NCBI RefSeq assembly: GCF_030651495.1
Contig: NZ_JAUSFI010000050.1
Span: 1-64,000, forward strand
DNA from: Undibacterium sp.
GTDB lineage: Bacteria; Pseudomonadota; Gammaproteobacteria; Burkholderiales; Burkholderiaceae_D
Direction: 5' to 3'
DNA length: 64,000 bases
Positions within the stretch are counted from its first letter, which is position 1, and every line of letters starts with the position of its first letter. Made by a program: the position numbers and the translations under genes. Shown here piece after piece: positions 1,118 through 56,992 of this stretch. A model generated the notes under the pieces. The model was not told where the DNA came from and made no database searches. It was given only the letters and a program-made list of their open reading frames with translations.

Positions 1118-3730
1118 ATGAACTCGTCAGAAATCCGCGATAAATTCCTCAAATTTTTTGAATCAAAGGGACATCACATCGTCCGTTCATCCAGCCTGAT
1201 TCCAGGTAATGACCCTACTCTGTTGTTCACCAACTCTGGCATGGTGCAGTTCAAAGATGTGTTTCTGGGACAGGATAAACGTAATTACAGCCGCGCCACT
1301 ACCTCGCAACGTTGCGTGCGTGCGGGCGGCAAGCATAATGATTTGGAAAACGTCGGCTATACAGCACGCCATCATACGTTTTTCGAGATGCTGGGTAATT
1401 TCTCGTTCGGTGATTATTTTAAACGTGACGCGATTCATTTTGCCTGGGAATTGCTCACGGGTGTGTATGGCTTGCCGAAAGATAAGCTGACCGTCACCGT
1501 GTATCAGGAAGATGATGAAGCCTATGCGATCTGGCAAAACGAAATCGGTGTGCCAGCCGAACGCATTATCCGTATCGGCGACAACAAGGGCGCGCGTTAC
1601 GCATCAGATAATTTCTGGCAGATGGCTGATACCGGTCCTTGCGGTCCGTGCAGCGAAATTTTTTATGATCACGGTGCCGATATCTGGGGCGGCCCTCCGG
1701 GTTCTCCTGACGAAAACGGTGACCGTTTTATTGAAATCTGGAATCTGGTGTTCATGCAGTTCAATAAGGATGAGCAGGGTGTGTTGCATCCGTTGCCAAA
1801 GCCTTGCGTCGATACCGGCATGGGCCTGGAGCGGATTGCGGCAGTGTTGCAACACGTGCATTCCAACTACGAAATCGATATTTTCCAAAGCCTGATCAAA
1901 GCCGCAGCGCGTGAAACCAATTGCCGCGATCTGACTAATAATTCCCTCAAAGTCATTGCCGATCATATTCGTTGTGCCGCTTTTCTGATTGTTGACGGCA
2001 TTATTCCAGGTAACGAAGGCCGTGGTTATGTGTTGCGCCGCATTACCCGCCGCGCCTTACGCCATGGTCATAAACTGGGGCAAACCAAACCATTTTTCTA
2101 CAAACTGGTAGCCGATCTGGTGCAGGAAATGGGCGTAGCCTACCCAGAGCTGGCTGAGATCGGCGACCGTGTCGCGCAAGTGCTCAAGCAAGAAGAAGAG
2201 CGTTTTGGCGAAACGCTGGAACACGGCATGAAGATCTTGGAAGCGGCGCTGGCCAAAGACAGTAAAAATCTGGATGGCAACACCGCGTTTACTTTGTATG
2301 ACACCTTTGGTTTTCCGCTTGATCTGACGGCAGACATTTGCCGCGAGCGCAATGTGGTGCTGGACGAAGTCGGTTTTAATGCCGCTATGGCGCATCAAAA
2401 ACAGACCGCCCGCGCCGCTGGTAAATTTAAGATGGCAACTGCCATTGAGTACAGTGGCGACAAGACGCAGTTTGTCGGTTACGAGCAACTGAGCCATGAC
2501 AGCAAAGTCATCGCTTTATACGTCGATGGCAGCGCGGTTCAACAGATTAGTGCCGGACAATCCGCGATTGTGGTGCTCGACGTCACGCCTTTCTATGCCG
2601 AATCTGGTGGTCAGTGTGGCGATTCTGGCGTATTGAAAAACAGCGTCGGCGTAGTGTTTGATGTCGCGGATACGCAAAAAATTCAAGCTGATGTGTTCGG
2701 TCATCACGGTGTCTTGACATCGGGCGTGCTGGAAGTCGGGCAAAAAATTTCGGCGCAAGTGGCGACCGCGGTGCGTGCACAAACCGTGCGCAATCACTCG
2801 GCGACCCACCTGATGCACAAAGCGCTGCGTGAAGTCTTGGGTGCGCATGTCGCACAAAAAGGTTCTTTGGTCGATGTTGATAAGACGCGTTTCGATTTTA
2901 GTCACAACGCACCAATGACTAAAGATGAAATTCGTCAAGTTGAACTCATCGTCAATCGCGAAATTTTAGCCAATGTGGCTGCGCAGGCGCAGGTGATGTC
3001 TTTTGATGACGCCGTCAAGCATGGCGCGATGGCTTTGTTCGGCGAAAAATATGGCGATGAAGTGCGCGTACTCGATATCGGCAGTTCGCGTGAACTCTGT
3101 GGTGGGACGCATGTTGCCCGCACGGGTGATATCGGCTTGTTTAAAATCGTCGCGGAAGGCGGTATCGCGGCTGGTATCCGTCGGGTTGAGGCCGTGACGG
3201 GTGAAGTTGCCCTGAGCCTGGTACAAGACTTGGATAGCCGCGTCAACGAAGCGGCTGCAGCACTCAAAGCGCAGCCAGAAGAACTGACCCAGCGTATCGC
3301 GCAATGGCAAGATAATATGAAGTCGCTGGAGAAAGAACTGGCGGCGTTAAAATCCAAATTGGCGGCAAATCAGGGCGATGCTTTGGTCGCGCAGGCATTG
3401 AATATTAAAGGTGTCCAGGTTCTGGCTGCAACGCTTGATGGCGCTGATGCTACTGCCTTACGCGATACTGTGGTCCGTCTCAAGGATCAGTTGAAAACAG
3501 CGGTGATCGTGCTCGCCTCGGTCCAGGATGGTAAGGTTAGTCTGGCTGCGGCTGTCAGCGCTGACTGTACTGCTAAAGTTAAAGCGGGTGATCTGGTGAA
3601 TTTTGTCGCGCAACAGGTTGGCGGTAAAGGCGGCGGTCGCCCGGACATCGCACAAGCTGGCGGTACTGATCCTGCCGGTTTGTTAAAAGCATTGGCCGAT
3701 GTACCGAGCTGGCTGAGTGACCGTCTGTAG
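1118..3730 (+). CDS. alaS: alanine--tRNA ligase
   Basis: AlaRS charges tRNA-Ala and edits mischarged Ser/Gly. At 870 residues it has the usual full length. The class II catalytic core starts at once ([17 protein letters not shown]; motif 2 region [24 protein letters not shown]). The editing domain carries the zinc-binding HSATHLMH and CGGTH motifs. The C-terminal part has a coiled stretch ([12 protein letters not shown]) and a Gly-rich C-Ala end ([15 protein letters not shown]). It begins at ATG 1118 and is monocistronic, with a terminator before it and a hairpin-containing gap after it. Nothing essential appears missing. Confidence 0.98.
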
Positions 3731-3848
3731 TCAAGGCTGATACTTCCTGCTATTGAGGTGCTTATGATCTTAATACCTCGGCCGAACTTGCCGACGCCCT
3801 TCAGATACGGCCGATGTATGCCAGTAGCAATATTTTTTCTGACACTTT

Positions 3849-48887: not shown

Positions 48888-48913
48888 AAATGACGACGAG
48901 ACGTCGTCATTTT
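48888..48913. terminator. hairpin after phoD
   Basis: AAATGACGACG and its exact complement (48888-48898, 48902-48912) surround an AGA loop, ending in a short T run. A plausible terminator for phoD. Confidence 0.6.
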
Positions 48914-49132
48914 AAAATCCGCACCGCTCACATTTTTCCCATGAAGCAGACCGGAAGCATACTGGCGATTCATGCCGTGCACAAGAATTTGCCGTGCAGG
49001 GCGAAAATCATCATCTACGCTTGCGCTAGCCATACCAATACGATACACAGGCGACGGGAGTTCATGGATGAGTATGTGGGCAGGCCGAAGGCCTCATCTC
49101 GATATCGCTGCACTGGCAATCCAGGCGGCGAA

Positions 49133-49369
49133 CTAATTCTTCTCCGGCTTGGGAGCTTCAGGAGTCGCGGCGCAGTCATTCGCATTTTTTATCGTGATGA
49201 CCTTATTTCCCGGGACCCACTCTTGCCAATCCTCGCCGAACAGCTCAACCGGATGCTGCGTGCGTTCCGAACCGTTGCCGCAGATGAGAGAATCAGCTGG
49301 ACAATACTTGTCGCAACCCCAGCAGAGACGCTCGGGATGCTCCGGATGTGCAGAAAATTTTTTTGCCAT
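49133..49369 (-). CDS. DUF3079 protein
   Basis: 78 residues from the ATG at 49369 (MAKKFSAHPEHPERLCWGCD); a longer frame to 49474 adds 35 residues that do not resemble the family. Four cysteines lie close together (CWGCDKYC and C in SLICGN), suggesting a metal site, and RTQHPVELFGEDWQEW is conserved. Function unknown. Confidence 0.8.
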   Translation of the reverse strand: MAKKFSAHPEHPERLCWGCDKYCPADSLICGNGSERTQHPVELFGEDWQEWVPGNKVITIKNANDCAATPEAPKPEKN

Positions 49370-49573
49370 TTCAGTTAGCGAATACAGATTGCTATTGCTT
49401 GGATACCGGCAAATGATACGGTGTTTGACTGAAGCTAGGCCACAGTAGCACTTCAAGTTATTGATCAAAAACAAGAAGCCGCTAAAAGAAAATGGCTTAT
49501 TGCCGATTTGTTTAGGTCGTAGAGGGGGCTCAAGTACGGTTGAGCTAAAGCCTCATCAGTCCAACCTACCGGC

Positions 49574-50617
49574 TCAATGCGTGTGCTCATGATGCAGATC
49601 GGGGGCATGAGTATGGCTATGTGCCATGGCCTCGTGCTGATGCGCATGGCTATGCGTCCCGGTTGGCATGGTTTCATGCCGATGATCATGGTGGCCGTCG
49701 TCGTGGCGGTGGGCGTGTTCATGTTCTAGTGCCTGATGTTGATGCGCGTGTTCATGCTGTTCGGTGATATGCAATATCACGCCGGCAATCATCAGGATGG
49801 TGGCAGCGATCAGCCATAGGCTTAATTCCCGTTCGCCCAGGCTAAATGCGATGCTGGCACCGATGAAGGGCGCTGCGGCAAAGAGTGAACCGGTGCGCGA
49901 TGCGCCAAAAGCACGCTGTGCCAGCAAGTAAAAGCGCAGGCTTAAGCCATAGCCGAACGCACCTATCAAAAACAAACTCAGCCCTGCATAGAGCGGCAGC
50001 GATGTCTGCCCAAGTAAGATGGCAATCAAGCATGAGCAACTGGCGCCGAGCGCGGCTTTGCCGAGGATGACTTGGCCTGGATCGAGATCTGCCAAGCCGC
50101 GCGATAAGGTATTGTCTATGCCCCATGCTAAGGTCGCGGCCATGACTGCCAGTAAACCAATAAAATGGCTGGACCCGACATGGGCTTGATCCAGCACTAA
50201 TAAGGCACCGCCGGCGCTAAGCAACGCCATTGCCAACCCGACGCGGTGGCCGATCGCTTCATGGTAGAACAGCAGTGATAACAAGATGGTAAATACCGCT
50301 TCTAAGCTCAGCATCAGCGAGGCACCCATGCCGCTGGTATGTTGCAAGCCCCAGGCCAGCGCTGCCGGGCCAAGTACTGCGCCAAAGCCAGACATCAACA
50401 GTAGGCGTGGCCAGTGTTGCCTTTGTAACGGCGCTTCACTTGCGCTATCGGCGCGTAGCAATAAGCCGGCGACGGCGGCGCCGGCATAGAGCAAGGCCGC
50501 GGTCATCCAGCCGCCGACACCTACCCCCATGCGCTGCACCAGGGGGGTGCTGGCACCAAACAGGACGGCGGCCATTAAGGCGAAAAATGCACCTTTATAA
50601 GCGGGAAAATTTTGCAT
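49574..50617 (-). CDS. EamA/DMT-family transporter with a His-rich tail
   Basis: 347 residues, about ten membrane helices in two EamA repeats (FGASTPLVQRMGVGVGGWMT at the start, GAFGYGLSLRFYLLAQRAFG and the second repeat GSLFAAAPFIGASIAF). About 24 of the last 65 residues are His, interspersed with Glu/Asp/Ala/Gln. Such tails bind Zn, Ni or Co and suggest the protein exports metal or senses it, unlike the usual DMT members. Transported substrate is not established. Confidence 0.82.
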   Translation of the reverse strand: MQNFPAYKGAFFALMAAVLFGASTPLVQRMGVGVGGWMTAALLYAGAAVAGLLLRADSASEAPLQRQHWPRLLLMSGFGAVLGPAALAWGLQHTSGMGASLMLSLEAVFTILLSLLFYHEAIGHRVGLAMALLSAGGALLVLDQAHVGSSHFIGLLAVMAATLAWGIDNTLSRGLADLDPGQVILGKAALGASCSCLIAILLGQTSLPLYAGLSLFLIGAFGYGLSLRFYLLAQRAFGASRTGSLFAAAPFIGASIAFSLGERELSLWLIAATILMIAGVILHITEQHEHAHQHQALEHEHAHRHDDGHHDHRHETMPTGTHSHAHQHEAMAHSHTHAPDLHHEHTH

Positions 50618-50746
50618 AAAATTCTACGGTGGAAATTTGGCTGGGTTTGAAAAAAAACGGATATCAAGCGCCGATTTTACTCCGCAGCCAATGAGTCTGC
50701 AGTCAATGAGTTGGCTTCACTAGCCGCTTAAGGGAGGACGCTAAAA

Positions 50747-50765
50747 GTGCGCAGCCCCTGCGCAC
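50747..50765. repeat. 8-bp perfect hairpin beside repeat R6
   Basis: GTGCGCAG-CCC-CTGCGCAC forms a strong stem nine bases before R6. It may be part of a combined repeat unit or an mRNA end structure. Confidence 0.45.
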
Positions 50766-50773
50766 CCTATCTC

Positions 50774-50845
50774 AACACGCAATGTCACTGCGCCTGCTGG
50801 CGGCATCGCCGCGCTAAGCCGCATGGGACATGCGTGATGGCTGCG
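50774..50845 (-). repeat. palindromic intergenic repeat, copy R6 (inverted)
   Basis: CACGCAATGTCACTGCG (50776-50792) pairs with CGCATGGGACATGCGTG; the middle CGCCTGCTGGCGGCAT is the complement of the core seen in R1-R3, so this copy lies on the opposite strand. It follows the stop of the HDOD gene. Confidence 0.7.
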
Positions 50846-50872
50846 ATGGTGCGGGTGACCAATATTTTTTTG

Positions 50873-52036
50873 TTAAGTGCTTGGTGGCTGGAGGCCATTG
50901 AGCTCATACAGCGGAATTTCGTTTAAGGTGTCGAAGCAGAGGATGCTGGTGGCATCGAGGCCAATTTTTAATCTTTCGTCATTCGATTTTAACTGTGCGT
51001 GATTGACCAAGATCCGCATCTTACTGATCAGGTCGGCACGCTGCAGCAACTGGCCTAGCTCGCTCCAGGCCACTAATTTGCTGCCACCGGTTTGCTGCTG
51101 CAATGCCTGCAACACCTCGGGCGGGAAGTTCCAGCGCTGTGCGATGCGATACGATAGCGTCGCTGCGACCGAATTGAAGGTCTGTTGAAAACCGCGCGAA
51201 TAGTGAAATTTGGTTTGCTCACATACCTGATCGAGTAAGCGAAACGCGATGATCATGCCGACATTTTTCATCATGCCAGTCAGGAAAGCTTGAAATGGAT
51301 ACCTATCTTGCGCCAGATAGCGGCAGGCGATCGCGCATTTTTCCGACTGGCTCCATATTGCCGGCGCGACGCGGCGGGTATAGTGACCTGAACTCAAATT
51401 GATAATTGGGCTGAACGCGACTTTGGCAATCACCAGACGTAAGCCTTCTTCACCTAACATCATCACGGCTTTTTCTAAGCTATTGATGCGGTCGGCCGGA
51501 TTGTAGAGGGCACTGTTGACGGTACGGATCACTTCACCGACCAGTACCACGTCTTTGATAATGTGGCCCGACAGTTCACTGGCGGATACGGTCTTATTGC
51601 GCAAACTGGCCAGCAATTGCGGAATGATACTCGGCATGCGCGGGATCACGACCGCATCATTTAAATCGGAGGCAAGCAGGGCAAACAGGGCTTGCAATAC
51701 TTTTTGCTCCAGCGCCGCATCGCTGCCCTGACCTGGGTTACCCATCATCCAGTCAAAAAATAAGCTATCGATAGGAAGTGCCGGCTTCCAGGCGATGAGC
51801 GCGACCGGCAATGGCGGTGCGCTCACGCTTACAGGCGTGGCGCTAATATCCGGCAGCGGCGCGCTTGCAGCAGGTGGCACTGGCGAGACGGGCGTCTCAG
51901 GTGTGAGTGCTGGCTGCTCGGGCGTTGCCAGGGCGGCTATTGATTGGTGGTCCGTTTTTTTTGCAACTTCTTGCGCAGAGGCCGAAGAGGGCGTGCCTAG
52001 CAATCGGCGCAAGAAATTTTTTAGGGCAATTCCCAT
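50873..52036 (-). CDS. HDOD-domain protein
   Basis: About 387 residues from ATG 52036 (MGIALKNFLRRLLG), with AAGGA just upstream; in-frame sequence further upstream is not protein-like. A Pro/Ala-rich low-complexity segment (about residues 20-90) precedes an HDOD domain (MPSIIPQLLASLRNKTVSASELSGHIIKDVVLVGEVIRTVNSALYNPADRI). These domains act in signalling, often near GGDEF/EAL proteins. No partner is adjacent. Confidence 0.85.
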   Translation of the reverse strand: MGIALKNFLRRLLGTPSSASAQEVAKKTDHQSIAALATPEQPALTPETPVSPVPPAASAPLPDISATPVSVSAPPLPVALIAWKPALPIDSLFFDWMMGNPGQGSDAALEQKVLQALFALLASDLNDAVVIPRMPSIIPQLLASLRNKTVSASELSGHIIKDVVLVGEVIRTVNSALYNPADRINSLEKAVMMLGEEGLRLVIAKVAFSPIINLSSGHYTRRVAPAIWSQSEKCAIACRYLAQDRYPFQAFLTGMMKNVGMIIAFRLLDQVCEQTKFHYSRGFQQTFNSVAATLSYRIAQRWNFPPEVLQALQQQTGGSKLVAWSELGQLLQRADLISKMRILVNHAQLKSNDERLKIGLDATSILCFDTLNEIPLYELNGLQPPST

Positions 52037-52156
52037 CATGATCCTTTTGTTTTTTTGTTTGATCACTATAGACCACTGTCGAGCCCGGTATCGTATCAGC
52101 GCGATATCGGGCTGTCGAGGCAATGCTGGCTGCCCGCTGTAAATAGCGCTATTCAA

Positions 52157-53032
52157 TCATCTTAATTTAGGTTTGACAACCAGGGCGACACCTGCCAGTG
52201 CAATCAGCATGCCCAGCATAGCGCTTACCGTAAAGCGCTCGCCAAACATCAGCCAGGCCATGATCGCCGTGACGGCCGGCACCAGATACATGTAGCTGGT
52301 GACCTTGGTCGCCTCACCATGCCTGATCATGATAAATAATACAGAAATGCCGACTCCCGATAACACAAAAATAGACCATGCCATGGCGGCAAAAAATTGT
52401 GGCGTCCATAGGATCGTATGCGTTTCCAGCATCAGGGCAAACGGCAATGTCACCAGCAGCGAAGCGAGAAACTGGATTACCTGTCCGCTGCGTACATCAA
52501 AGGAGGGACAAGTCTTTTTTTGGTATAGGGTGCCCAGCGTCATCGAGAGCAGGGCAAAAATTGCCAGCGTAATGCTGGTGCCAGACAAGCCCAGCATCGA
52601 TATTTTATTTGCCACCACCAAGCCCACCCCGAGAATGCCCAACGCCAAGCCCAGCCATTGGGTGCCGCGAGTGCGCTCACCGATCAGCGGGCCAAAAATG
52701 GCGGTGAGTATCGGCTGGGTATTGACGATCAGGGCGGCGAGTCCGGCCGGCATGCCGAGCTTGACGGCGCACCAGACTCCGCCCAGATAGCCAGCCTGCA
52801 TCAATATGCCGGCGATCGCGATATGTTTCCAGGCAGATCTGGCAGGCCAGGGCGCCCGCATGGTCAGCGCCAGGGTCCCCATGAACAAAATCACGCCGAC
52901 GTAGCGCAGGCACAAAAATGTCAACGGTTCGGCATACGGCAGACCGTACTTGGCGACCACGTAACCGGACGACCAGATGAAGATGAAAATTGCCGGAAGA
53001 AAGCGCAGCAGGGGAGATGAATGAGAAGTCAT
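52157..53032 (-). CDS. EamA/DMT-family transporter
   Basis: 291 residues with about ten hydrophobic segments; repeat one starts FLPAIFIFIWSSGYVVAKYG and the second shows FAAMAWSIFVLSGVGISVLF and MYLVPAVTAIMAWLMFGERF. A typical member of the drug/metabolite family without the His tail of its neighbour at 49.6 kb. Substrate unknown. Confidence 0.86.
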   Translation of the reverse strand: MTSHSSPLLRFLPAIFIFIWSSGYVVAKYGLPYAEPLTFLCLRYVGVILFMGTLALTMRAPWPARSAWKHIAIAGILMQAGYLGGVWCAVKLGMPAGLAALIVNTQPILTAIFGPLIGERTRGTQWLGLALGILGVGLVVANKISMLGLSGTSITLAIFALLSMTLGTLYQKKTCPSFDVRSGQVIQFLASLLVTLPFALMLETHTILWTPQFFAAMAWSIFVLSGVGISVLFIMIRHGEATKVTSYMYLVPAVTAIMAWLMFGERFTVSAMLGMLIALAGVALVVKPKLR

Positions 53033-53067
53033 GCGTTCAAATCAAAGTCAAAATGGTGGCAGCTCCA

Positions 53068-53142
53068 AGACGCAGCATGCATGCGGCTTGCAGGGCTGAT
53101 AGGCTGAACAGGCGCATGGATAGTGCGCGCCCGGCAGGGGCA
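53068..53142 (+). repeat. palindromic intergenic repeat, copy R7 (degenerate)
   Basis: ACGCAGCATGCATGCGG (left) and GGCGCATGGATAGTGCGCG (right) plus CCGGCAGGGG recall R1-R3; the centre has diverged. It lies in the sodB/EamA gap. Confidence 0.5.
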
Positions 53143-53198
53143 TGGGTGGATGCTGAAAACAGCTATCCAGTGATCATATGCCAGCAGGCCCATCGTAT

Positions 53199-53249
53199 GG
53201 ATGAAAAAAAACCTGCGATGCGCAGAATCATCACAGGTTTTTTTCATCC
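53199..53249 (-). terminator. terminator of sodB
   Basis: GGATGAAAAAAAACCTG pairs with CAGGTTTTTTTCATCC and the inner GATG with ATCATC, placing a T-rich tail after the stem on the minus strand, about 36 bases past the sodB stop. Confidence 0.75.
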
Positions 53250-53284
53250 ATCCTCAAACATGATGCTGAGGTGGTGCGTTTGGC

Positions 53285-53863
53285 TTAAGCCAGGTTTGCG
53301 TTAGCAAAATCCCAGTTAACCAGCGACCAGAATGCTTCCAGATATTTTGGCCGTGCATTGCGGTAGTCGATGTAGTAAGCGTGTTCCCACAGATCGCAAG
53401 TCAACAAAGGCTTGTCGGTTGTTGTCAGTGGCGTAGCGGCGTTGGAAGTGTTGACGATATCCAAAGAACCATCGGCTTTTTTCACCAGCCAAGTCCAGCT
53501 AGAACCGAAATTGCCGATGCAAGATTTAGTGAAGGCATCCTTGAACGCATCAAAGGAACCCCATTTTGCATTGATGGCATCGGCGATGGCGCCAGTTGGT
53601 GTGCCGCCGCCGTTAGGCTTCAGGCCATTCCAGTAGAAAGTGTGATTCCAGACCTGGGCTGAATTATTGAAAATGCCAGCAGAAGATTTCTTGATGATTT
53701 CTTCCAATGTGGAGTTTTCGAATTCTGTTCCTTTGATCAGGTTGTTCAGATTCGTTACATAGGTCTGGTGATGCTTGCCATAGTGATATTCCAGCGTTTC
53801 TTTAGAAATATGTGGAGCCAAAGCGTCCAGTGCATAGGGCAGTGCCGGTAAGGTATGTTCCAT
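53285..53863 (-). CDS. sodB: superoxide dismutase (Fe type)
   Basis: 192 residues from ATG 53863 ([20 protein letters not shown]), with AAGGA upstream; a longer frame to 53905 is not family-like. Metal ligands are in [22 protein letters not shown] and [14 protein letters not shown]. No signal peptide, so cytoplasmic. Fe rather than Mn is the usual assignment for this order; sequence alone does not settle it. Confidence 0.92.
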
Positions 53864-54002
53864 GATGCGTCCTTCTGTTGTCATTTCGGTGGGCTGTCGT
53901 TCCAAATATCTGAAACGGTAAAATCAGCATTGTAAGCGTTTGCTGAAATGCTTGCAGGGGATGTGTTAATTTTTCGACTTGTATGCCGCGATCGCACACC
54001 AA

Positions 54003-55376
54003 TCACTCATTATTTTCTGATAGTGCCGCCTGTACCGTGCTGATGCCGACCTCGGCCGTGTCAGTGGCGGTGGTGATATTAATCAGGCTGTTTGGGTGCA
54101 ACTGTTTGCTGGAACGTATCAATTTGCCTTGCTGATCGCGCAAGATGGCGTAGCCACGTTCCAGCGTCCGCTGTGGATTGAGCAGTTCAAGTTGCCCGCG
54201 CAGCGCAGTGATGCCGCGCTGCTGCTGCTGAAGGTGGTGCTGCATGCTCGCGGTGAGCCGGTGCTGGGCGGCATCCAGATGTAGGTGCAGCGTGGCGGTG
54301 TCGGGTTGATTGCCAAGCAAACGTGTCTGCAATTGCGCCAGGCGCGATTGTGCGTTTTGCAACGGCATATGGCTGGCGTAACGCAATCTTTGTGAACAGC
54401 TTTGCAGTTGCAGGCGTTTGCTGGCGATGCTCGCCATCGGGCTGAGCAGACGTCGTGCAGTCCAGTCCAGTGTTTGTGTTTGCGTGGTCAATTGCCTGTG
54501 CATGCTGCGTTGCAGATGGGCTTGATGCCGCTGGAGTTGTTCTAGCCAATCTGCGCGTGCACCTGCCGCCAGTTCTGCGGCGGCGGTTGGGGTGGCTGCG
54601 CGTACGTCCGCGGCGAAATCGGCCATCGTAAAATCTGTTTCATGACCGACGCCGCTAATGACGGGCATGCTGCAATGAAAAATCGTGCGCGCCACGATTT
54701 CAGCATTAAACGACCATAAGTCTTCGATGCTGCCACCGCCACGGCAAACCAGCAAGACATCGCACTCTTCGCGCGCCGAAGCCGTCGCGATGGCCTGGGC
54801 AATTTTTTCGGCCGCACCTTCTCCCTGGACTGGGGTCGGATACAAAATCACCGCCACATGCGGTGCGCGGCGTTGCAAGGTAGTCAGAATGTCACGTAAG
54901 GCGGCCGCTTGCGGGCTGGTAACGATCCCTATGCAGCGGATAAACGGCGGAATAACACGTTTGTGCTCGGTATCAAACAAGCCCTCGGCGGCCAGTTTTG
55001 CCTTGAGCTGAAGGAAGGCTTCATACAGATTGCCAACACCGGCGCGGCGTATCGCTTCGACATTGATTTGATAATCGCCGCGTGGCGCGTACAGGCTGAC
55101 CAGGGCGCGCACTTCGACTTTGTCGCCTTCGCGTGGTGCAAAGTCAGCGTATTGGGCGCGGCCGCGAAACATCACGGCCTTCACTTGCGCGGTGCTGTCT
55201 TTTAAAGTGAAGTACCAATGTCCAGACGCGGCGCGGGTAAAATTGGATATTTCGCCGGAAACCCACGTCAATGGGATGTTTCGCTCCAGAAGTTGAGCAA
55301 CGGCGAGGTTCAGCGCCGAGACTGTGATGACAGCGCCCGTAGCGAATGGGTTTGGTGAGCGAGAATCAGGAATCAT
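54003..55376 (-). CDS. xseA: exodeoxyribonuclease VII large subunit
   Basis: 457 residues. The OB-fold ([49 protein letters not shown]) is followed by the nuclease core ([70 protein letters not shown]) and a coiled-coil C-terminus. It degrades single-stranded DNA together with XseB, which is not encoded here. Transcribed away from the DnaA-like array. Confidence 0.96.
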
Positions 55377-56386
55377 AAGGGTGGTAGGTGCAAAAGCTGT
55401 CCACAGAAGCGTGGAATGGCCATCAGGATGTCATCAAGCTTGAGTGATGTCAAAAAAAATCTCAAAATTAAGCGTAAGTGATTGATTTTTATGGGATAAC
55501 TGGATTTGCCTATGATTTAAGCTGTCACATAATATCCTTATGAATCAAGGACTTTGCTTACCTCAATACAACTTGTACACAAACTTATCCACAGAAACTG
55601 TGGGGTTTATAAAACGAAATGTGTCTAAATTACAAATAATGCTGCTGCTCAATTTATTGGCAGCAATAAAATACTGATTAAAATCATGTGCTTAGCAATA
55701 TCTACCGAACTTGTTCACAATCTTGTCCACAAAATATGTGCAGAGATTATTCGTGGCGATTTAAATAGTGTCTAATAATTAAATAAAATGCATAAAAAAC
55801 ATGGATTTACCCTGCTGCCTCTTTTGTTAGCATAGGTAAAATAGCGTATAAAATCATGGGCTTGGCTTTATCTCCAGCGCTTCTGCACAATGTTATCCAC
55901 ATAATATGTGAAAAACTAATGACTTATCCCCATTTGTTGCTTAAAGTTATTTTTTAAAGCGTATTACGCCAAAAAATAGTCACTTGCCACATTCTTGAGC
56001 AGTAGCATAATGTTGAATAAAATCATGGACTTAACTGTTACTCCATAGCTTGTACACAATCTTGTCCACAAAATGTGTGTAAAACCTTGCGTGAGTAATC
56101 CACATTTTTTAGCGCTTGCCTGTGAATAAGTGATGGGACGCCGCTGCCTATTTCTTTAGCAGTGAATAAAATATGATGTAAATCAATGGCTTATCCTTAT
56201 GCGCCGGAGATATCCACAGTTTTGCACACAGAATTTGTGCAGAACTGCGGACGCTCCAACCGTAGCACTAAAAGTACGGCAATAAAATTTACACATAAAT
56301 TACAGGTATTTAAGCAGCATCTACTTGCCCGTTAGCACACACTGCGCTACATTGCGGGGTTGGATTCATACCCTGAGGAGTTTCAT
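55377..56386. other. non-coding AT-rich region with five DnaA-box-like repeat units
   Basis: No gene is visible over 1 kb. Five degenerate units each hold two 9-mers near TTRTNCACA 12 bases apart and an inverted TGTG half-site 14 bases after the second. Box positions (first/second/TGTG): 55573/55585/55599; 55711/55723/55737; 55881/55893/55907; 56050/56062/56076; 56210/56222/56236. Perfect TTATCCACA occurs at 55585 and 55893; TTGTCCACA at 55723 and 56062. Units also share TAAAATCATGG-CTTA near their left ends (55678, 55849, 56018, 56179). Genes point away on both sides. This could be an origin-like or DnaA-titrating site. Confidence 0.8.
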
Positions 56387-56992
56387 TTGTTCGCCATTAT
56401 TCAAGCTGCTGGTTGGCCTATTTATCTTTTGTTGGTTGCCTCGATTATCGCCCTGGCGCTGATACTCGAACGCACTTTGTCGCTGCGCCGCCAGCGTATT
56501 CTGCCGAAAACCTTGCTCGATGAGGTTATCCGCGTCTATCACTCCGGCAAGATCAAGCAGGAAGTGATCGATCAGCTGGCGAATAATTCCCCGCTCGGCA
56601 AGGTGCTGGCTGCCGGCTTGCGCAATGTCAATGCGCCCAGGGAAGTCATGAAAGAATCGATAGAAGAAGCCGGTAGCGGGGTGGCGCATGAACTAGAGCG
56701 TTTTCTCACCACCATCGGCACCATTGCTTCGCTGGCGCCGTTGATGGGCTTGTTTGGTACCGTCATCGGCATGATAGAAATTTTTGGCTCACAAACGGCG
56801 GCTGGTGCAAATCCGGCGCAATTGGCGCATGGTATTTCTGTGGCACTTTACAACACCGCTTTTGGCTTGCTGATTGCGATGCCTGCGCTGATTTCTTATC
56901 GCCATTTTCGTGCGCTGGTAGATAGCCTGGTGGTCGATATGGAGCAACAGGCAGTGAAGTTTGTCGATACCGTACACAACGCGAGAAAATAA
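56387..56992 (+). CDS. exbB: ExbB/TolQ/MotA-type proton channel
   Basis: About 201 residues from TTG 56387, six bases after GAGGAG; a TTG at 56360 would add nine residues. Three membrane helices are visible (WPIYLLLVASIIALALILE, LTTIGTIASLAPLMGLFGTVIGMI, YNTAFGLLIAMPALISY). With the ExbD-like partner two bases downstream it forms an energy-transducing complex driven by the proton gradient. TonB is not here, so the partner may be TonB elsewhere or a Tol-like system. Symbol by family resemblance. Confidence 0.88.
   Translation: MFAIIQAAGWPIYLLLVASIIALALILERTLSLRRQRILPKTLLDEVIRVYHSGKIKQEVIDQLANNSPLGKVLAAGLRNVNAPREVMKESIEEAGSGVAHELERFLTTIGTIASLAPLMGLFGTVIGMIEIFGSQTAAGANPAQLAHGISVALYNTAFGLLIAMPALISYRHFRALVDSLVVDMEQQAVKFVDTVHNARK

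Follow-up and report, generated by a model that had tools for sequence, protein, structure and literature searches.

What is the function of a tandem array of DnaA-box-like sequences that lies between two divergent genes? This question is raised by a 64,000-nucleotide stretch of Undibacterium sp. (contig NZ_JAUSFI010000050.1, positions 1 to 64,000 of the forward strand; hereafter the window), in which the 983-bp gap between xseA and a gene of the ExbB/TolQ family holds five repeated units. The initial annotation had considered a replication origin, a DnaA sink or the site of another protein. Judging from its anatomy, the array probably consists of five tandem, compact sites that resemble DARS2, a DnaA-reactivating sequence (DARS) of E. 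coli, and that would turn ADP-DnaA into ATP-DnaA. If this is true, the array is a repeated form of a switch whose E. coli counterparts are single sites.

The array and the geometry of its core

The five units start at 55573, 55711, 55881, 56050 and 56210, as first reported, and the measured spacings of 138, 170, 169 and 160 bp agree with the reported range of 138-170 bp. Each unit had been described as two 9-mers of the TTRTNCACA kind followed by an inverted TGTG. Four units (55573, 55711, 55881 and 56050) match TTNTNCACA-N3-TTNTNCACA-N5-TGTG exactly, whereas the unit at 56210 has two mismatches (ATATCCACA / TTGCACACA) and thus does not strictly belong to the TTRTNCACA kind. The two boxes called perfect are indeed so, with TTATCCACA at 55585 and 55893. 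The inverted TGTG stands at a fixed +14 and proved to be the end of an inverted 9-mer spanning +14 to +22, which matches TTNTNCACA in full in units 3, 4 and 5, with one mismatch in unit 2 and with three in unit 1. The unit pattern, at up to two mismatches, occurred in none of 2000 dinucleotide shuffles of 55377-56391 (1015 bp).

The "TAAAATCATGG" block shared by the units contains the IHF consensus, which we take to be WATCAANNNNTTR. It is preceded by a TGC-N11-GCA block that is absent from the initial annotation and resembles a Fis site. A candidate extra unit near 55397 (CTGTCCACA) was left out because, by reading, it has no partner boxes in register. The parts of the five modules are as follows.

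55508-55522, + strand: module 1 Fis-like block GCCTATGATTTAAGC, no mismatch to GnnYAnnnnnTRnnC, at a fixed place 35 bp before the IHF site
55543-55555, + strand: module 1 IHF-like site AATCAAGGACTTT, one mismatch to WATCAANNNNTTR
55573-55607, + strand: module 1 DARS-type core, box III 55573-55581, box II 55585-55593 (TTATCCACA), inverted box I 55599-55607, weak beyond its CACA
55647-55661, + strand: module 2 Fis-like block GCTCAATTTATTGGC, one mismatch
55682-55694, + strand: module 2 IHF-like site AATCATGTGCTTA, one mismatch
55711-55745, + strand: module 2 core, box III 55711, box II 55723, inverted box I 55737-55745 (CTCTGCACA)
55817-55831, + strand: module 3 Fis-like block GCCTCTTTTGTTAGC, weak, placed by alignment, more than one mismatch to the consensus
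55852-55864, + strand: module 3 IHF-like site AATCATGGGCTTG, one mismatch
55881-55915, + strand: module 3 core, box III 55881, box II 55893 (TTATCCACA), inverted box I 55907-55915 (TTTTTCACA)
55986-56000, + strand: module 4 Fis-like block GCCACATTCTTGAGC, weak, placed by alignment, more than one mismatch to the consensus
56021-56033, + strand: module 4 IHF-like site AATCATGGACTTA, one mismatch
56050-56084, + strand: module 4 core, box III 56050, box II 56062, inverted box I 56076-56084 (TTTTACACA)
56146-56160, + strand: module 5 Fis-like block GCCTATTTCTTTAGC, one mismatch
56181-56193, + strand: module 5 IHF-like site AATCAATGGCTTA, a perfect WATCAANNNNTTR
56210-56244, + strand: module 5 variant core, box III 56210 (ATATCCACA), box II 56222 (TTGCACACA), inverted box I 56236-56244 (TTCTGCACA), two mismatches over boxes III and II

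The geometry of the core is that of the two E. coli K-12 sites. The boxes of DARS1, between bioD and uvrB, lie at 1108(+), 1122(-) and 1134(-) of stretch L104, and those of DARS2, between rppH and mutH, at 3636(+), 3650(-) and 3662(-) of stretch L105, with start distances of 14 and 12 in both. Read on the opposite strand, either core is III-12-II-14-I, with box I opposite to boxes II and III, and this is the unit of the window. The earlier statement that datA and DARS are built differently thus does not stand for DARS, where the 12/14-bp geometry with an inverted box I is identical; it stands for datA, which lacks the inverted box at +14. Passages of a review describe equal spacing at DARS1 and DARS2 and a box I in the opposite orientation (PMC5742627), and the window units show each property of the core as defined there: three boxes, box I opposite, and the spacing shared by DARS1 and DARS2.

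A control scan covered ten E. coli regions, which represent 14 of the 16 DnaA-bound places in a table from the covered part of a chromatin immunoprecipitation sequencing study (PMC11317965); the rne and dnaN regions and pairs with 2-bp gaps were left out. Eight pairs of boxes 12 bp apart were found, at DARS1, DARS2 (two), datA, polA, purH, nrdA and oriC/mioC; the stretches around dnaA, nrdD and rpoH gave no such pair. An inverted box at +14, with one mismatch, accompanies the DARS1 core and the DARS2 core alone, and the other six pairs (oriC, datA, polA, purH, nrdA and the second DARS2 pair) have three to six mismatches at that place.

Conservation and the IHF and Fis-like sites

The gap between xseA and exbB was compared in 81 loci, namely the window and the best 80 of 507 confirmed exbB relatives, which is not a random sample. 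In seven of these stretches (L039, L050, L061, L070, L085, L088 and L093) no xseA was detected, and there the scan took in everything upstream. A unit was defined by the CACA of box II and the TGTG of box I in register. By this rule, 73 of the 81 gaps hold one to seven units, 292 in total, with the 12/14-bp geometry kept; the total omits boxes less than 70 bp from the left end or less than 40 bp from the right end of a gap. The geometry also emerges from the CCACA anchors of the 81 gaps (n = 454): CACA lies at -12 in 269 and TGTG at +9 (box start +14) in 269, and the counts at all other offsets within 40 bp are 41 or lower. Of the 292 units that have boxes II and I in register, 263 also carry box III's CACA at -12. 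The consensus of box II over the 292 units is TT(A/G)TCCACA, its CACA part being fixed by the selection of units.

Copy number varies. Under a stricter rule (72 loci), there is one unit in 14 loci, two in 6, three in 9, four in 12, five in 11, six in 12 and seven in 8, and the median unit spacing is 162 bp (212 spacings). In 15 of 60 multi-unit loci the fourth position of box II in the exbB-proximal unit is not T, as in 56210-56244 of the window, and the first 12 rows (L024 to L037) are among these.

The suggestion of an old array kept for its boxes is borne out by comparison of the modules. Three groups of loci were picked by hand (8 Janthinobacterium, and 3 + 3 of Undibacterium type). Within genomes, identity between modules is 0.74-0.80 in the sites, a value partly built in because the CACA, TGTG and IHF letters were used for picking units, and 0.25-0.30 in the spacers, which is chance. 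Modules of the same order in different genomes are 0.80-0.95 identical in the sites and 0.28-0.70 in the spacers. Parts that were not used for picking, compared within genomes (563 pairs, 58 multi-module loci), have identities of 0.63 for the Fis-like block and 0.84 for box III, as opposed to 0.26 for the spacer. Since the non-selected parts are conserved while the spacers are at chance, the repeats are old and their sites have been kept; on the same three values a decaying repeat is rejected.

The sites beside the core are placed as regularly as the boxes. IHF matches with at most one mismatch start at -42 (127) or -41 (87) from box II in the 292 units, giving 214 matches, and the next place has 20; perfect matches are found at -42 (74), at -41 (45) and twice elsewhere. 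After units less than 130 bp from the left end were dropped, 212 of 288 have, at consensus level, a DARS2-type IHF site on the box III side (at most one mismatch at -42/-41), as do all five window modules. A further four units had no IHF match within two mismatches, leaving 284. Alignment on the IHF site brings out the TGC-N11-GCA block, with an AT-rich middle, at -36 to -20. Scored against the Fis consensus GnnYAnnnnnTRnnC, the position 35 bp ahead of the IHF site gives zero or one mismatch in 54% of the 284 units (16% perfect), compared with 0.9% on average at other offsets; the -35 offset was derived from the same alignment that was then scored. The G at -7 and the C at +7 of the Fis-like block occur jointly in 95% of these units.

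The order of core, IHF site and Fis-like block in the modules is, at consensus level, the core-IHF-Fis order of DARS2. In E. coli the DARS2 core occupies 3636-3670, the IHF consensus is found at 3729-3741 and 3745-3757, and the Fis consensus at 3781-3795. Passages of one study give the complement form of the IHF consensus as TAAnnnnTTGATW and report that DARS2 requires IBS1-2 and FBS2-3; the two consensus sites found here are 3 bp apart, as is said there of IBS1-2 (PMC4245941). DARS2 is similar to the array in the 14/12 distances of its three-box core, in an IHF consensus on the box III side followed by a Fis consensus (a Fis-like block in the array), and in lying far from oriC on one arm. It differs in having one core instead of five, further boxes and other neighbours. 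DARS1 has the same core geometry and, like the array, adjoins a DNA-repair gene; it differs in being a single core with no IHF consensus at up to one mismatch in the stretch scanned around the bioD-uvrB gap.

By analogy, boxes II and III would be occupied by adjacent DnaA molecules, and box I by DnaA in head-to-head orientation to that on box II. IHF would bend the DNA on the box III side, with Fis beyond it, and both would shape the DnaA complex. ADP would then leave DnaA, and the empty DnaA would take up ATP and become able to start replication at oriC. Release of ADP from DnaA at DARS2 with IHF and Fis is described in this way in passages of two studies (PMC4245941, PMC8682772). For the array, we infer the binding of DnaA, IHF and Fis and the output of nucleotide exchange from sequence. 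Several modules may provide a stronger or graded supply of ATP-DnaA.

The genome encodes IHF-alpha and a Fis homologue. The IHF-alpha gene scored over its cut-off, and IHF-beta was not singled out. The Fis homologue is 40% identical to E. coli Fis over 77 amino acids (NF002517, 120.1 bits, cut-off 122) and lies between dusB-like and purH-like genes, named by reading; E. coli fis likewise follows dusB. DnaA shares 53% identity with residues 1 to 343 of its E. coli counterpart and conserves D269 and L290, of which a passage of the review states that the former is needed at DARS1 and the latter at DARS2 (PMC5742627). An AAA+ match on contig C138 (L003) was considered as Hda, alongside matches on C25 and C23; by reading, with no family search, the C138 match resembles an IstB-type ATPase, and Hda is not claimed.

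Weighing a DARS-type function against its rivals

The array is flanked by the following genes.

54003-55376, - strand: xseA, exodeoxyribonuclease VII large subunit, left flank (TIGR00237, 492.6 bits, cut-off 180)
56360-56992, + strand: ExbB/TolQ-family gene, right flank (top NCBIfam match tolQ, 90.8 bits; under the tolQ and exbB cut-offs)

Genes had been said to point left from 49.1 to 55.4 kb and right from 56.4 kb to the window end. In a greedy map of open reading frames (ORFs), used here in place of annotation, this is true of the frames from 49574 to 55376 and of those from 56360 onwards, except that a 162-codon ORF at 48890-49378 points right. Passages of one study report that the position of DARS and transcription through it matter in E. 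coli (PMC5010248), and the location of the array in a gap between divergent genes fits their importance.

A replication origin, main or secondary, was among the functions first suggested, and it is extremely improbable. E. coli oriC also combines DnaA boxes with an IHF site, according to the review passages (PMC5742627), and the genes flanking the array diverge. On the other side, dnaA lies on another contig than the window, and in four relatives with both on one contig the distance from the array to dnaA is 1.34 Mb (G154, same genus), 1.61 Mb (G054), 1.70 Mb (G096) and 1.07 Mb (G015). At this distance of 1.1-1.7 Mb from dnaA, the array is hardly the origin. With the contig taken as a circle, it is at 0.53-0.63 of the half-contig from dnaA (G054 alone is a one-contig assembly; G154 and G096 consist of two contigs each and G015 of three, the largest of 3.99 of 5.2 Mb). 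The distances from oriC in E. coli are 0.66 for DARS1, 0.41 for DARS2 and 0.20 for datA. In G154, sampled at 20 places of 10 kb each, GC skew is positive for roughly the first 1.5 Mb, one exception aside, and negative beyond; it returns to positive between 3.6 and 3.84 Mb, and its sign is unchanged on both sides of 2.2 Mb. In G054 the sampled region, 3.48-3.66 Mb, includes the array, and cumulative skew goes up throughout. Skew therefore shows no change at the array in the two relatives examined, and, as judged in relatives, the array has neither the skew minimum nor the nearness to dnaA expected of oriC.

A locus like datA, at which DnaA and IHF assemble and speed up ATP hydrolysis, switching DnaA off, would have the opposite activity to DARS (PMC5742627, in part), and loss of datA raises the number of origins per mass (PMC4585315, in part). 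We regard this as quite unlikely for the array. datA does contain two direct boxes 12 bp apart (2233/2245 of L106) and a perfect IHF consensus, and another box on the same strand follows at a distance of 162 bp, which is also the median unit spacing of the array. The essential boxes of datA all run in one direction with IHF between them; in the array, boxes III and II run in one direction and IHF sites lie between modules, and each module adds an inverted box I. At datA there is no inverted box at +14 (four mismatches), and its head-to-head pair is spaced 12 (2407/2419), not 14; among the 454 anchors of the array, TGTG occupies the +14 place in 269 and the +12 place in 39. No Fis site is described for the minimal datA region in the review passages covered (PMC5742627).

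It is unlikely, too, that the array is only a DnaA sink, a DnaA-controlled regulatory region for the divergent xseA and exbB, or both. A cluster of boxes would bind DnaA whatever its output, the covered part of the binding study reports that E. coli DnaA favours boxes separated by 2-3 bp (PMC11317965), and the gap is a divergent promoter region. Promoter-like matches in 55300-56450 number 7, with 3.9 expected (standard deviation 2.1), which favours neither side. Titration, however, needs no fixed inverted box, nor IHF and Fis-like sites at fixed distances, and as many as seven modules within about 1.3 kb would be a lot for a promoter. Both titration and control of the neighbouring genes may coexist with a DARS-like function. 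That a protein other than DnaA reads the boxes is very improbable: boxes III and I deviate from TTATNCACA, but box II is TT(A/G)TCCACA in the E. coli DARS geometry over the 292 units, and DnaA is well conserved.

Several points weigh against the DARS2-like reading itself. The core departs from its E. coli models at the end of box I, which is CACT/CACC in the E. coli DARS and CACA in the array, and box I of module 1 is weak (three mismatches). Distances differ as well: box III to IHF is 16-17 bp in the array and 58/74 bp in DARS2, IHF to Fis is 20 bp as opposed to 23 bp, and each module has one IHF site where DARS2 has two consensus sites. Between the centres of box II and the IHF site there are 39-40 bp in the array and 81 bp to the first IHF site in E. 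coli; the excess is about four helical turns, which is post-hoc arithmetic and not a test. In the Fis-like block, positions +-6 (C/G) are kept beyond the Fis consensus, and two of the five window blocks (modules 3 and 4) match poorly, so that another protein may bind there. The array is not orthologous in place to DARS1 or DARS2; its neighbours are xseA and the ExbB/TolQ-family gene and not mutH. In eight of the 81 loci (L047, L056, L062, L075, L076, L094, L096 and L099) the rule used above picks out no unit. Herbaspirillum accounts for three of the eight, and a fourth Herbaspirillum locus, L097, has one unit. Finally, the same core geometry occurs upstream of priA without an IHF site, and the core alone may therefore not mean reactivation.

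Related cores elsewhere and wider occurrence

A search of the genome to which the window belongs (4.79 Mb, 179 contigs) with the core pattern TNCACANNNTTRTCCACANNNNNTGTG gave five matches, and the reversed control gave none. Assigned by sequence, units 1-4 of the window account for four of these, and the fifth lies between hemE and priA (G000:C133:1543-1577, L174). This last core has no IHF site at -41/-42. PriA was obtained in 39 of 40 core-bearing genomes of the class, which were the first 40 other than the window's own among the matches listed for the strong-box core and not a random set. A same-strand core precedes the aligned part of PriA by 595-794 bp in 18 of the 40, and the other 22 have their core or cores elsewhere. 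The priA-upstream cores share III-12-II-14-I with the array; they differ in that box II is TTATCCACA in each one listed, there is no IHF site at -41/-42, and they lie 20-183 kb from dnaA in the relatives examined. They may be DARS1-like sites or DnaA-controlled promoters of priA. G154 has another DARS-type core without an IHF site between hemE and priA (G154:C1:3582355).

In G161 and G054, the skew minimum of the sampled stretch lies about 57-70 kb from dnaA (L240-L258, L260-L269), and because of this offset oriC may not adjoin dnaA there. The hemE-priA gap lies some 38 kb away from this minimum (sampled stretches of 380 and 200 kb), which makes it origin-proximal but places it off the minimum itself.

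In the family, the combined IHF and core pattern (ATCA-N5-TT-N20/21-core) occurs in 59 of 245 genomes and 19 of 44 genera, with none in the control. xseA was found in 11 of 21 genomes searched, and in all 11 the IHF and core matches lie within 2.7 kb of it. A looser core is present in 142 of 195 family genomes, with the xseA and priA classes mixed. The class as defined in GTDB takes in the beta-proteobacteria. Across it, the strong-box core alone (TNCACANNNTTATCCACANNNNNNGTGNATAN) is found in 120 of 274 genomes and 101 of 222 genera (control 0), and the IHF and core pattern in 5 of 369 genomes, own genome included (control 0), so that few genomes outside the family have the compact form with IHF. 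Apart from the own genome, the matches are G267, G224, G369 and G540. In the first three, which are distant class genomes (L219, L221 and L222, respectively), a core is accompanied by an IHF-like site at the same distance, and the L219 core lies before a prfB-like gene, named by reading. In G540 the core precedes priA, and the IHF site is matched poorly (two mismatches).

This distribution may be put in a wider frame, which we offer tentatively and hold somewhat doubtful. The head-to-head DARS core could be an old, general device of gamma- and beta-proteobacteria, with a priA-upstream form (DARS1-like, no IHF) and, in Oxalobacteraceae, a bank of one to seven IHF/Fis-gated modules whose number would tune the speed of DnaA recharging. 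In the literature passages covered, only E. coli and its relatives are credited with DnaA recharging by DARS. One study, in the part covered, restricts both Fis and the DARS2 core to those gamma-proteobacteria that are related to E. coli (PMC4245941), and the review passages name beta- or gamma-proteobacteria (PMC5742627). Tandem DARS sites, or DARS in Oxalobacteraceae, were not found in the open literature among the matches listed (titles and starts of abstracts); most subscription papers were outside this scope, and this is weak evidence of novelty. If the DARS2-like reading is true, a multi-copy beta-proteobacterial array would supply naturally occurring variants, with 1-7 modules and compact spacing, on which the importance of each part of a DARS could be tested. 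The widespread core pattern could also guide a search for candidate sites in further genomes.

Some minor observations were made along the way. The gap is only 149-191 bp in the Herbaspirillum loci L075, L096 and L099 and holds no module; sites elsewhere in those genomes were not searched. Two more loci were noted in the window's genome. Near nrdG/nrdD, a block with TTATCCACA boxes and the IHF consensus occurs twice, 907 bp apart (G000:C3:6634-7747, L012 408-1521). E. coli nrdD is listed as a DnaA-bound region in the covered part of PMC11317965. At G000:C3:18407-18452 (L009 1488-1533), four minus-strand copies of TTATTCACA follow one another in steps of 12-13 bp, within a short simple repeat between two ORFs.
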